From a virus, in IMG/VR virus record IMGVR_UViG_3300036792_000176, positions 23,998-87,997 of that record: a stretch of 64,000 nucleotides of DNA. The stretch is one strand, 5' to 3'. A program made the translations under genes and the position numbers. Below are positions 802 through 24,452 of this stretch, in pieces; position 1 is the first letter of the stretch; every line of letters begins with the position of its first letter. The notes under the pieces were generated by a model. The model searched no databases, was not told the origin of the DNA, and was given only the letters and a program-made list of their open reading frames with translations.

Positions 802-940
802 TTAGCGCCGCTAATTACCTAGGCTAACGATCTCGACGACTGCTGACTCCGATGCATCTGGCTCTGAGATCAGCCCGTCCTCTGCTCCACTCGGGACTCC
901 AGTGCACGGAATCGTTAGCCGAGGTAATTATCCGCCCTAA
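802..940. repeat. 30-bp imperfect inverted repeat, operator-like
   Basis: Bases 802-831 and 911-940 are inverted copies of each other at 26 of 30 positions. The 20-base core (812-831 against 911-930) has a single mismatch. The arms are 79 bp apart and contain the smaller palindromes TAGCGCCGCTA and CCTAGG. The repeat lies directly upstream of the promoter of the winged-helix-like gene at 993, so it is a good candidate operator or replication-protein site. Confidence 0.7.
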
Positions 941-958
941 CGAATGCCTGGGCCAGGT

Positions 959-986
959 TTGTACCTCCCACGAGGTAAGGTATACT
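959..986 (+). promoter_or_regulatory. Promoter giving a leaderless transcript
   Basis: A TATACT -10 box at 981-986 lies six bases before the ATG at 993. A weak -35-like TTGTAC at 959-964 is 16 bp upstream. No Shine-Dalgarno sequence fits between the -10 box and the ATG, so transcription should start at or next to the start codon. Leaderless messages are common in actinobacteria. Confidence 0.65.
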
Positions 987-992
987 AGTTTC

Positions 993-1313
993 ATGGACAA
1001 CGAACTCATGTCATTCGAGCAGAGCACCGATCTCAACACCGGCTATGTCGAGCAGACAGAAGAGCCGCGCGCTGCCGGTACGAGGGGCCCGCTCGCTGTC
1101 AGACAGGCCGAGATACGTGGAGCACTCAAGGCTATGTTCTACATGAAGAGCGTCTGGAGGGCAAATGAGGCCCATGAAACGCTCCAGAACATCGGAATAG
1201 TCGCAAGTCCGAGGGTGATAAACATGGTAAAACGGGAGCTTGGCGTGAAAAGCGTAGCCGTTCACGTCCTTGGAGAACCAGGTGCAAAGCACTGGAATTG
1301 GGTAATGGACTAG
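993..1313 (+). CDS. Small winged-helix-like protein, paralogue of the primase-helicase C-terminal domain, 106 aa
   Basis: The last 65 residues align without gaps to the C-terminal domain of the primase-helicase encoded at 12282-14423, with 24 identities. These include VW, GI, VK, GxPG and the shared ending WNWVMD. In the big protein this domain sits where replication initiators carry a DNA-binding winged helix. The N-terminal 40 residues are polar and probably disordered. The start at 993 was chosen because the -10 box six bases upstream gives a leaderless message; the frame is open further upstream but lies in the inverted repeat. The gene is flanked by two long inverted repeats and by iterons. 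Inference: a replication-control protein, initiator accessory or autoregulator. DNA binding is predicted, not shown. Confidence 0.75.
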   Translation: MDNELMSFEQSTDLNTGYVEQTEEPRAAGTRGPLAVRQAEIRGALKAMFYMKSVWRANEAHETLQNIGIVASPRVINMVKRELGVKSVAVHVLGEPGAKHWNWVMD

Positions 1314-1360
1314 TGAGAATTTCTTCTGCGTGAGTTAGAAGGTAAAGTTTCCGGACTGTG

Positions 1361-1528
1361 TCCTTATATACCTACTACTCCCACTACTATAGTTACTGTA
1401 TATCCTTACTTATGATACGCGGGAGGGCCTGCGGCGATACCACTTCACCCAGCCCCCGAAATCATATATGACACCCCAAACATGAGATTTCAGTAGTGGT
1501 AGTAGTGGCGGTAGTAGAGATATAAGGA
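1361..1528. repeat. 30-bp imperfect inverted repeat flanking an AT-rich stretch
   Basis: Bases 1361-1390 and 1499-1528 are inverted copies at 25 of 30 positions. They are built from TAGTAG-type triplets and end in TATAAGGA on the right arm. The 108 bases between them include an AT-rich run around 1390-1415. The repeat forms the left part of the origin-like region. Confidence 0.65.
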
Positions 1529-1571
1529 CATCACCCCGAAACTCGTACTCCTTACCCCGCCATACGCCCCC

Positions 1572-1701
1572 CAACCGGAAGCAATCACGCCCAACCGGAA
1601 CCAACCCGTATCAACCGGAACGAGCACAAATCCACCAGCGATCAACCCTCAGCCATCCGCGCCGACCCGAACAGCCGTACCCGAACTGAACAGCCGTACC
1701 C
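1572..1701. other. Iteron-like direct repeats, candidate replication origin
   Basis: CAACCGGAA occurs three times at 1572, 1592 and 1612, exactly 20 bp apart, about two turns of the helix. GAACAGCCGTACCC then occurs twice, at 1669 and 1688. Together with the AT-rich stretch and inverted repeat to the left, this is the usual layout of an origin or partition site: phased protein sites beside an unwinding element. Nothing in 1314-1942 looks coding. Promoter-operator function cannot be excluded. Confidence 0.5.
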
Positions 1702-1795
1702 CGCTACTGCACGTAGGCACCCGCCCCCGAATGCTAACTCAAAGTAGTCGACGGAAAGGCTCCTATACGGGTAGCCATACCGGGTAGCACTACGG

Positions 1796-1844
1796 TATAC
1801 TGTTCATATCGGCCTCCCCCGCCGGTAAGCGGTACGGCGGGGGA
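1796..1844 (+). promoter_or_regulatory. Promoter and leader hairpin of the acidic-tail protein gene
   Basis: TATACT at 1796-1801 is a good -10 box; no clear -35 box is visible. The transcript would begin with a perfect 10-bp stem (TCCCCCGCCG at 1815-1824, complement at 1835-1844, 10-base loop) and leave a leader of roughly 135 bases. The hairpin may stabilise the message or act in attenuation. Confidence 0.45.
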
Positions 1845-1942
1845 AGCTGAGCCAACGGGAAACCGACAGGACACCCCGGCCCCGACAGACCAAACCGCAA
1901 CACCCCAGCCCCACAATGGGCACCAAGAGGAAGAAGAACAAA

Positions 1943-2935
1943 ATGTCCACTGTCATCGAGTGCGAGGGCGCAGGCCAGGCCTGGTCCTACCTCCTCCAGG
2001 ACTCCAACGGCAACTCCGTCGACCCCCGGACCGACAACGACACCAAGACCAAGACCACCACCCAGCTCCCCGGCTGCCCGGTCTGCCTGCTCACGGCCAA
2101 GGACCTCAAGATCAAGGTCAGCCGCAAGAACGGCAAGCTCTCCCCCATCCACATCCCCGAGCACATGGTCGAGGTCCCAGGCGACGAGCTGCTGTTCATG
2201 CTCATCAACGGCGAGTTCGATGTCCACGTCAAGGGCTGCAACCGGATCAAGGCCCAGCTCAAGAAGAGCGACTACGAGCGCCCCGGCACCGTCCTGGCCA
2301 CCGACCCCCACGACCTGGTCACGCAGCTGTGGGATGACATCATCCCCGAGGCCTGGGTTCAGGAAGAGGACCCGGAGGGCACCCCCGAGGTGCGCGACCC
2401 CGAGACCGACGAGCTGCTCAGCCCGATCAACCCCACCGACGAGTGGCTCGAGAAGCACAACTACTACAGCGCCACCGGCATCCACACCTGCGTCGCCAAG
2501 CTCGGCGGCGAGTGGGCCAACGGCACCGGCGCCAAGGGCAAGGCCAAGTCCAACGGCGGCGCGTCCCGTCAGGCCAAGCGGGACCTGGCGCTGGTCCTCG
2601 TCGAGGCCATGGCGCAGGCGATCAAGGAGCTCCAGGACGACCCGGCCAACGACCCGAACAAGATCATCCCCACCCTGGGATACGAGGAGGCTCGCCAGGT
2701 CGTCGCTCAGTGGATCCACCACTTCCCCGCCAACCGCGACGAGTGGATCAACCACCTCCCCCGCCCCAACCGCTCCGACTGGATCACCGAGTCGGAGGCT
2801 GCCGGCACCCAGACCAGCGACGAGACGGACGACGACACGAACAGCGACGCCGACGCCACCGACGAGGACGAGCTGGACGAGAACCAGAACGACGAGGACA
2901 CGGACCAGGAGGACGAGGACGACGCCGAGGAGTGA
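1943..2935 (+). CDS. Abundant-type protein with long acidic tail, 330 aa
   Basis: The frame is open from an ATG at 1916, but ATG 1943 is preferred because AGGAAG lies 8 bases upstream. The protein has a CPVC pair near residue 45, a globular region to about residue 290 and a tail of some 45 residues almost entirely Asp, Glu, Asn and Thr. Codon choice is strongly C/G-ending, unlike the ATA/AGG-rich neighbours, which suggests high expression. It has its own promoter, leader hairpin and strong terminator. Acidic tails are common on phage SSB-like and DNA-mimic proteins, but no domain is recognised, so function is open. Confidence 0.8.
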   Translation: MSTVIECEGAGQAWSYLLQDSNGNSVDPRTDNDTKTKTTTQLPGCPVCLLTAKDLKIKVSRKNGKLSPIHIPEHMVEVPGDELLFMLINGEFDVHVKGCNRIKAQLKKSDYERPGTVLATDPHDLVTQLWDDIIPEAWVQEEDPEGTPEVRDPETDELLSPINPTDEWLEKHNYYSATGIHTCVAKLGGEWANGTGAKGKAKSNGGASRQAKRDLALVLVEAMAQAIKELQDDPANDPNKIIPTLGYEEARQVVAQWIHHFPANRDEWINHLPRPNRSDWITESEAAGTQTSDETDDDTNSDADATDEDELDENQNDEDTDQEDEDDAEE

Positions 2936-22483: not shown

Positions 22484-24452
22484 CATCACCACGGACGGTA
22501 GGCATGTCATCGCGCATATCCCGTACGCTCGCGGAGAGGGGACAGAGTGGGCCAAGAAGGTACCCGGCGCTAAACCGGTGTACGAGAAGGTAGATGGTCT
22601 GGACAAGGATAAATTCAAGCACTGGTCTTATCCTCTCACCATGGAGACGTGCCGCACCTTCCGGCGCATATTCGGATCAGAGCTTACCGTTCGTAATGCC
22701 CTGTCAGATTGGGCTCGTGCCGCCATAGCTGCAGGCGAGCAGCTTGAGCAGCTACGCGACGGAGCTAGCGCCGCGCTCCCTCGTGTTGAGTCCGAGTCGC
22801 CATTCCTTCATGCCGCAATGATGGACAGGCCGTACCAGCCTGCCGGCACGGCGTTCATGGTTCTGGCCGGACAGTGCATCCTCGGTGATGAGCCGGGTCT
22901 TGGCAAGACGCTACAGACACTCGGCGCTCTGATCGAGTCTGACAGCAAGGACATCCTCGTCGGCTGCCCGCGCACAGCTACCCGTAACGTATGGGAGCGA
23001 GAGACGCGGCGCTGGGCACCTAACATCCAGGTGTTCGTTGCCCAGGGTACCCGGGCAGAGCGCGAGGCGGCTATGGACGGCTACGCCGCGTTCCGCAAGA
23101 ACTGGCCTGACATACAGTGCATGCTCGTTATCAACAACGAGATGATCAGGGCAAAGCGTTACCAGCAGTGCAAGCTCACCAAGGACTGGAAGAAAGATGG
23201 CAACCCCTACGCCGCCTGGTCAAAGATAAAGAGGCCATACGGATCCTGCAAGAAAGACCATCCGCACCGCACTGTTGCTGAATATGAGTGGCCGTTCCTA
23301 TTCAAGCGTAAATGGGACGCTATCGTCATCGACGAGTCTCACAATCTTCTTGCGTCTACATATAATGTTGGCAGTAAGAGCATCACCCAGGGACGTTACG
23401 GTGCAATGAAGTTGCGCAGACGTCTACGGCCGGAAGGGCTGGCTCTAGCCCTGAGCGGCACGCCATTCCGATCGAAGCTGACGAAGGGCTGGGGTACACT
23501 AAACTGGTGCCGCCCAGATGTATTCAGATCATACTGGAACTTTGCCGGACATCACTTCGGCGTAGAGCAGGGCAAATACGGACAGGTCGTAGCCGGAGGA
23601 GCCAAGGTACCCAAGCCGGTAGATCAGGAAGCATTCGATGCAATGCTACGACCATACTACCTAGCCCGGACAAAGGAGCTAGCAGCTCCTGACCTGCCAC
23701 CAGTGCTGTTCGTCGGCAATCCTCCTGAAAGTGATCCAGAGGGAATGCACGGCATATGGCTTGACATGGACCCGAAGCAGAAGAAGTCGTACCAGAGCAT
23801 GGCCGCTCTTGCCGAGGCTAGGCTGAGAGGTGGGCTACTCACGGCTAACGGCACCCTCGCGGAGATAACGCGCCTTAGGCAGTTCGCTACGGCGCACGGC
23901 AGGATGGAAGGGAACACATTCGTCCCAGACCTGCCCTCCAATAAGGTTGACTGGATTCTTGAGTTCCTGATGGAGCGGGAGGGACACGAGGAGAAAGTCC
24001 TTATCGCATCCAGCTTCACTCAGATCGTTCACCTTGTGTCTGAATGCATAGAGAAGGAATTCAAGGGAGAGGTGCTACGCCTTACCGGAGCGACAACAGA
24101 CCGCGGTCGTGTGGAGATCAAGGATAGGTTCAATGATCCAGATGATGATGCGCGGGTGCTTGTAGTTCAGTCCAAGACGGGCGGAGAAGCCATCACCCTG
24201 GACGGATGCTGCAGCGACCTTGTGATCATAGACCTACCCTGGACTTCTGACGAGGAGAATCAGCTTGTCGCTCGTATCCATAGGGTGAGCAGAGTACACC
24301 AGGTGATGGTGCATAGACTGTTCAGCCTTGGCTCTGTCGACGGCTGGATGGCAGCATACTCTGACGAGCAGAGGGCTGTCATCGAGTCGAACAAGCCAAA
24401 GGCAAGAAAGAGGACAGCCCTGGAAGCCATAACATGGCACAAAAATTCGTAA
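22473..24452 (+). CDS. SNF2-type DEAD/DEAH helicase, 659 aa
   Basis: All superfamily-2 motifs are visible: GDEPGLGKT (residues 138-146, Walker A), DESH (287-290), SGTP (328-331), and in the second lobe a SSFTQIV segment, QSKTGGEAITL and the arginine-finger region LVARIHRVSR near residue 610. The N-terminal 110 residues are specific. The insert at 225-275 with CKKDHPH is unusual. Such phage helicases act in replication restart or recombination. GTG 22473 overlaps the preceding gene. Confidence 0.85.
   Translation: MRADITTDGRHVIAHIPYARGEGTEWAKKVPGAKPVYEKVDGLDKDKFKHWSYPLTMETCRTFRRIFGSELTVRNALSDWARAAIAAGEQLEQLRDGASAALPRVESESPFLHAAMMDRPYQPAGTAFMVLAGQCILGDEPGLGKTLQTLGALIESDSKDILVGCPRTATRNVWERETRRWAPNIQVFVAQGTRAEREAAMDGYAAFRKNWPDIQCMLVINNEMIRAKRYQQCKLTKDWKKDGNPYAAWSKIKRPYGSCKKDHPHRTVAEYEWPFLFKRKWDAIVIDESHNLLASTYNVGSKSITQGRYGAMKLRRRLRPEGLALALSGTPFRSKLTKGWGTLNWCRPDVFRSYWNFAGHHFGVEQGKYGQVVAGGAKVPKPVDQEAFDAMLRPYYLARTKELAAPDLPPVLFVGNPPESDPEGMHGIWLDMDPKQKKSYQSMAALAEARLRGGLLTANGTLAEITRLRQFATAHGRMEGNTFVPDLPSNKVDWILEFLMEREGHEEKVLIASSFTQIVHLVSECIEKEFKGEVLRLTGATTDRGRVEIKDRFNDPDDDARVLVVQSKTGGEAITLDGCCSDLVIIDLPWTSDEENQLVARIHRVSRVHQVMVHRLFSLGSVDGWMAAYSDEQRAVIESNKPKARKRTALEAITWHKNS

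Follow-up and report, generated by a model that had tools for sequence, protein, structure and literature searches.

A standalone winged-helix protein homologous to the C-terminal domain of a phage primase-helicase, and its possible part in replication initiation

Winged-helix domains in described replication systems

In phage P4 the helicase of the alpha protein is SF3-type, and Cnr is a small partner. The alpha primase is Toprim-type and its winged-helix domain binds repeats at the P4 origin (PMC4234260); winged-helix homo- and heterodimers are regulatory in P4 according to the citation of Yeo et al. (2002) in PMC4234260. RSF1010 uses three separate proteins, the iteron binder RepC, the hexameric helicase RepA, and the primase RepB' (PMC4234260). 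ORF904 of pRN1 has a winged-helix DNA-binding domain linked to origin recognition, and an origin behind the replication gene has been proposed for the BIP-1 phages (PMC4234260).

The locus studied here lies in a 64-kb stretch of phage DNA (the window), which encodes a primase-helicase, P0002, and a small protein, P0001, that resembles its C-terminus. P0002 is not of the P4 alpha family, having Prim-Pol and AAA_25 instead of Toprim and SF3. The likeness to RSF1010 lies in a RepA-type helicase, as in P0002, and a primase, and would extend to a separate iteron-binding protein (RepC) if P0001 has that putative role; in the phage, though, one protein combines the primase and the helicase with its own copy of the DNA-binding domain, and the searches made gave no match to RepC in sequence or fold. 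pRN1 ORF904 and Bordetella phage BIP-1/BPP-1 are alike in Prim-Pol, helicase, C-terminal winged helix, and an origin element behind the gene, but their helicase is SF3, their origin is a stem-loop, and no standalone winged-helix copy is reported for them in PMC4234260. Phage Prim-Pol/AAA_25 primase-helicases (phrog_10729, the Kratiovirus DNA primase/polymerase) have a homologous winged helix at the same C-terminal place as P0002, although these enzymes are multidomain and P0001 is the domain alone. The Kratiovirus “DNA binding protein” (phrog_10342; Agent47 gp94, Gengar gp93) is a standalone copy of the primase domain and adjoins a noncoding AT-rich region; it differs from P0001 in having about 60 extra C-terminal residues, and iterons are clear beside it but not in the window phage (G000).

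P0001 and the C-terminal domain of the primase-helicase

P0002 has a Prim-Pol domain at residues 39-167 and a RepA-type AAA_25 helicase at residues 351-524 (E 2e-7 and 3e-24), followed by a C-terminal winged helix, and its residues 360-529 match the structure of RSF1010 RepA (1g8y, E 9e-5). In P0001 the winged-helix domain follows about 30 acidic, poorly structured N-terminal residues. BLASTP aligns residues 31-106 of P0001 with residues 627-702 of P0002 without gaps (30 of 76 identities, 39%, E 9e-18); both aligned stretches end in WNWVMD, beyond which P0002 has 11 residues (VKMKVSEEEEE). A profile built from eight helicase C-termini, with all standalone copies excluded, recovered P0001 (E 6e-12) among 14,018 reading frames, which were drawn from loci fetched by related searches and form an enriched set; the E-values stand. 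P0001 thereby matches the C-termini of AAA_25/Prim-Pol primase-helicases significantly, and the same profile recovered a third copy of the domain in the window phage (3.5e-11), the Kratiovirus standalones (4.5e-12 to 9e-9), and a protein of the related phage G008 (1.6e-4). Chance similarity between P0001 and P0002 is ruled out by the BLASTP and profile E-values, because a profile free of standalones still picks P0001 from so many frames.

In AlphaFold2 models, P0001 and the P0002 C-terminus share one predicted winged-helix fold, H-E-H-H-E-E, with a core pLDDT of about 90-94 for P0001 and 82-90 for P0002, from input alignments that have most of their sequences in common. The models were compared by the positions of elements along the sequence: P0001 has H34-51, E54-56, H57-66, H73-83, E85-91, and E98-105, and the P0002 piece has the corresponding elements at model positions 31-48, 51-53, 54-63, 70-80, 82-88, and 95-102. 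All six coincide, with residue r of P0001 equal to r+596 of P0002, the same offset as in the alignment. The initial annotation had described a gapless C-terminal alignment of 65 residues; the homology is borne out over a slightly longer stretch, and the domain it took to be shared has the same predicted fold in both proteins, every helix and strand falling at matching residues. Alignments, profiles, and models together confirm that P0001 is homologous to the C-terminal winged helix of P0002 and carries this domain in free-standing form.

No Pfam, PHROGs, or NCBIfam family name was obtained for P0001, and the lack of a PHROG match means that the family profile of the Kratiovirus standalone, phrog_10342, was not matched; a profile-profile comparison with phrog_10342 gave E 6e-5 and 66% probability, which supports domain homology only. 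A PDB profile search with P0001 returned only RpoN (E 0.16) and fold searches of the PDB yielded nothing but generic winged helices (best E 0.06), so no specific solved relative was recognised. In a fold search of viral models, rank 28 was a 129-residue protein of Rando14 (Kratiovirus), a length that suits the standalone. The net charge of the wing is 0 in P0001 versus +4 in the primase copy, the basic residues being gone from P0001; the DNA target of its winged helix may therefore have diverged from that of the primase copy.

The domain is present at the C-termini of AAA_25 proteins from gut phages, mycobacteriophages, and IMG/VR phages, and the idea that it is peculiar to the window phage was rejected, since AAA_25 enzymes commonly carry this winged helix at the C-terminus. 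The Microbacterium phage primases of Fransoyer, Lonelysoil, and Marcie have the helicase part in common, and the domain profile found no match in them. When IMG/VR and GTDB genomes were scanned with no more than the domain as query, only G001 was returned, and relatives were found instead with terminase and full primase queries; the sister records come from terminase relatives in IMG/VR.

The P0001 locus and its counterparts in related phages

Positions of the features in the window (table) place P0001 between palindromic sites and an AT-rich noncoding region. The GC minimum is directly behind the P0001 gene, and across the entire record one other place is equally low. The third, separate copy of the domain lies outside the window at record positions 23309-23569 (L005 9310-9570), 1.4 kb before P0001, and encodes an 86-residue protein 33% identical to P0001. 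Both standalone copies of the window phage, at 33-39% identity, have intact frames and keep the domain-invariant residues.

Table. Features of the P0001 locus and of the primase-helicase gene (positions in the window)
Feature	Position	Strand	Remarks
Two abutting palindromic 13-mers	802..827		TTASCNNNGSTAA
Palindromic 13-mer with imperfect neighbour	915..940		Inverted relative to 802-827
TATACT, candidate -10	981..986	+	Six bases before the ATG at 993
Standalone winged-helix protein P0001	993..1313	+	106 aa
Winged-helix domain of P0001	1083..1310	+	Residues 31-106; BLASTP, AlphaFold2
Candidate unwinding region	1301..1420		120-bp GC minimum of the 64-kb window, 39%
Noncoding origin-like region	1314..1915		53-nt imperfect inverted repeat, CAACCGGAA x3, AGTAGTGG x3
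Conserved gene	1916..2935	+	No Pfam or PHROG match; G008 homologue directly follows the standalone there
Primase-helicase P0002	12282..14423	+	713 residues
C-terminal winged-helix domain of P0002	14160..14387	+	Residues 627-702

The 13-mers between 802 and 940 are the only strongly over-represented sites of the locus, and they are part of inverted arms (794-842 and 900-948) that are 76% complementary. The whole record of the window phage has six such 13-mers, versus 0.2 expected from base composition, and five of the six flank its two standalone genes: record positions 23610 and 23623 are just behind the third copy, and 24799, 24812, and 24912 are just before P0001. Three tandem 13-mers (TTAGCGCCGGTAA, TTACCTAAGCTAA, TTAGCGGTGGAAA) start 41 bp after the third copy (L005 9611-9649). 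The arms of the 53-nt repeat in the noncoding region are at 1346-1398 and 1491-1543. The repeats of this region are weak, 21 of 288 windows passing the same repeat test, and their reading as a convincing iteron array is for that reason unsupported. For the TATACT hexamer, a good -35 was not found and a sigma-70 scan did not list it; the P0001 transcript, judging by the position of this box, may be leaderless.

The primase of G001 is 81% identical to that of the window phage, that of G002 62-64%, and that of G005 41-43%, and all three phages have the primase copy of the domain only (for G002 and G005, in the available records). G001 has three of the 13-mer sites (L008 1048, 1394, and 2163), all in the corresponding region, and the standalone is absent. 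The 13-mers of the window phage flank the P0001 gene yet persist in G001 without it, so they cannot depend on P0001, and their reading as its private target was rejected; it could be the primase domain, or another regulator, that recognises them.

G008 (IMGVR_UViG_3300050821_004459) is a relative of the window phage in which an AAA_25 primase-helicase was not recognised in the record. Its standalone domain protein has 210-227 residues, and the gene after it is the homologue of the gene after the noncoding region of P0001. The order at L087 9311-12897 is AT-rich iterons, standalone winged helix, conserved gene, and DUF3631 P-loop protein. The iterons ACCGTTTCTA and GAAACTACCG are private to this place, with 4 of 4 matches each at 83932-84343, just before the standalone, and the site is the GC minimum of the G008 record.

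In mycobacteriophages, 33 records match an Agent47 gp94 query, and 32 of them match in two places, the primase C-terminus (phrog_10729) and the standalone (phrog_10342), identified in Agent47 by profile search and in four others by reading the annotated standalone gene; Boilgate has the primase place only. In every Kratiovirus pair dN is below dS, and by this measure the standalone is under purifying selection. On a tree, the standalone label is forced to change at least two times, counted on starred branches, a result that holds for the groups rather than for single nodes inside them; the Kratiovirus standalone and P0001 probably have separate evolutionary origins. The noncoding gap behind the Kratiovirus standalone gene is 252-610 bp, and 11-bp CAGTYRGGTCA iterons, direct and inverted, surround an AT-rich core in it. 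Across five whole Kratiovirus genomes, all 22 matches to this sequence directly follow the standalone gene, and the primase has none next to it; in Gengar the gap is also the GC minimum of the genome. No description of the Kratiovirus pair or iterons was found in the open-licence literature searched, and an earlier description elsewhere is possible.

Where relatives lack a standalone, the iterons are with the primase. CAGTYRCGTCA in G015 is found at the 3' end of the primase gene and beyond it (6 of 6 matches), and Boilgate (MZ274310) has CAGTYGGTGCA iterons in the gap of 238 bp that follows its primase gene (49.06-49.30 kb). Boilgate has a second iteron array at 55.5 kb (55.4-55.8 kb), inside a 404-bp duplicate, 88% identical, of the primase 3' end and iteron region; the duplicate begins within the last primase codons and takes in no more than some 19 codons of that gene. 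Boilgate may therefore have two origins, and the duplicate is likely a fossil of how standalones arise.

The initial annotation had placed P0001 beside an origin-like region and had suggested a search for the same pair in related phages. The pair does recur, as primase C-terminal domain and standalone, in Kratiovirus. The neighbourhood is upheld in part: the GC minimum is behind the gene, and the layout is found again, with clear iterons, in Kratiovirus and G008, but the repeats of the noncoding region are weak and the 13-mers are kept in G001 without a standalone. The evidence for an origin in the window phage is thus weaker than that in Kratiovirus. In the mycobacteriophage group and G008, iterons adjoin whichever gene encodes the winged helix and are hardly found anywhere else. 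To our knowledge, the replication origins of most actinobacterial phages are unknown; this link points to putative origins in the cultured phages Gengar, Omnicron, Agent47, and Boilgate.

Possible roles of the standalone domain

With a probability of about one half, we propose that P0001 is a detached origin-recognition domain, a separate initiator like RepC that recruits the primase-helicase. The P0001 gene would sit within the origin and early-control region of the phage, and the protein would bind specific sites adjoining its own gene and help replication to start there, marking the putative origin. It would bring in the RepA-type primase-helicase, probably by winged-helix contacts with the C-terminal domain of the enzyme, a split of labour that would resemble RSF1010, where RepC binds iterons and RepA is the helicase. 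Iteron binding by the winged helix, origin function of the Kratiovirus gap and its counterparts, and a positive role of the standalone are all suggested by this arrangement. Such domains probably become detached when the 3' end of a primase gene and the origin that follows it are duplicated together. This would offer a step-by-step route, with Boilgate as an apparent intermediate, from a multidomain replication enzyme to a separate initiator. That domains have repeatedly broken free together with the origin, the 3' end and iterons being duplicated, the old origin lost, and the standalone outliving its parent as in G008, is a tentative extension that we hold with less confidence than the proposed initiator role itself.

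The initial annotation had suggested that the short form could compete with, recruit, or regulate the initiator if the shared domain binds the origin; competition or regulation is one possibility among several. A free domain could limit initiation by occupying origin sites or by forming mixed winged-helix dimers with the primase-helicase. P0001 has the domain but no catalytic parts, its gene lies at an origin-like region, and P4 gives a precedent in its winged-helix homo- and heterodimers, as Yeo et al. (2002) are cited in PMC4234260; by analogy with proposals for P4 Cnr and truncated plasmid Reps, such a protein might serve copy control. We consider negative regulation unlikely, however, since G001 manages without a standalone, and G008 retains the protein with no AAA_25 primase-helicase found, which means that the protein is not solely dominant-negative there and favours a DNA-marking role of its own, as initiator or recruiter, over that of a pure competitor. 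Control of transcription is an improbable reading as well: the protein would bind the 13-mers upstream of leaderless early promoters and control its own gene and neighbours, the resemblance to an origin being incidental. In both G000 and G001, small early genes do have TATACT/TATAAT promoters with 13-mers about 40-90 bp ahead of them, and an iteron-like CTGCAGTCAGATCA is found just upstream of the Agent47 standalone gene, but 13-mers and promoters are kept in G001 without any standalone. The Kratiovirus iterons are behind the gene, symmetric around an AT-rich core, and nowhere else in the genome, a placement more in keeping with an origin than with a promoter operator. It is very doubtful that the standalone is a fragment copied along with the origin and now of little function. 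Boilgate demonstrates that such duplications occur, if with few primase codons, and the standalone is absent in G001 and only the primase copy is seen in G002 and G005; against this are a dN well below dS in Kratiovirus and, in the window phage, two copies that have diverged with frames, domain core, and invariant residues preserved.

Several further observations concern the early regions of these phages. In G000 and G001 the TTASCNNNGSTAA 13-mers scarcely occur outside the early control region, where they precede promoters that look leaderless, with TATACT or TATAAT 5-8 bases before the ATG. G001 encodes two apparently paralogous small proteins (MSTSILYGKHH.. and MSALADYEIHG..) at about L008 1116-1330 (+) and 1840-2076 (-), each preceded by a 13-mer and a TATAAT box; the MSALADYEIHG.. 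protein has a homologue in G000 at L005 9724-9963, without a Pfam or PHROG match. In the gut phage records L013 and L018, TTGCAA-type repeats are directly 3' of the AAA_25 helicase gene, perhaps the same layout with an origin behind the gene.
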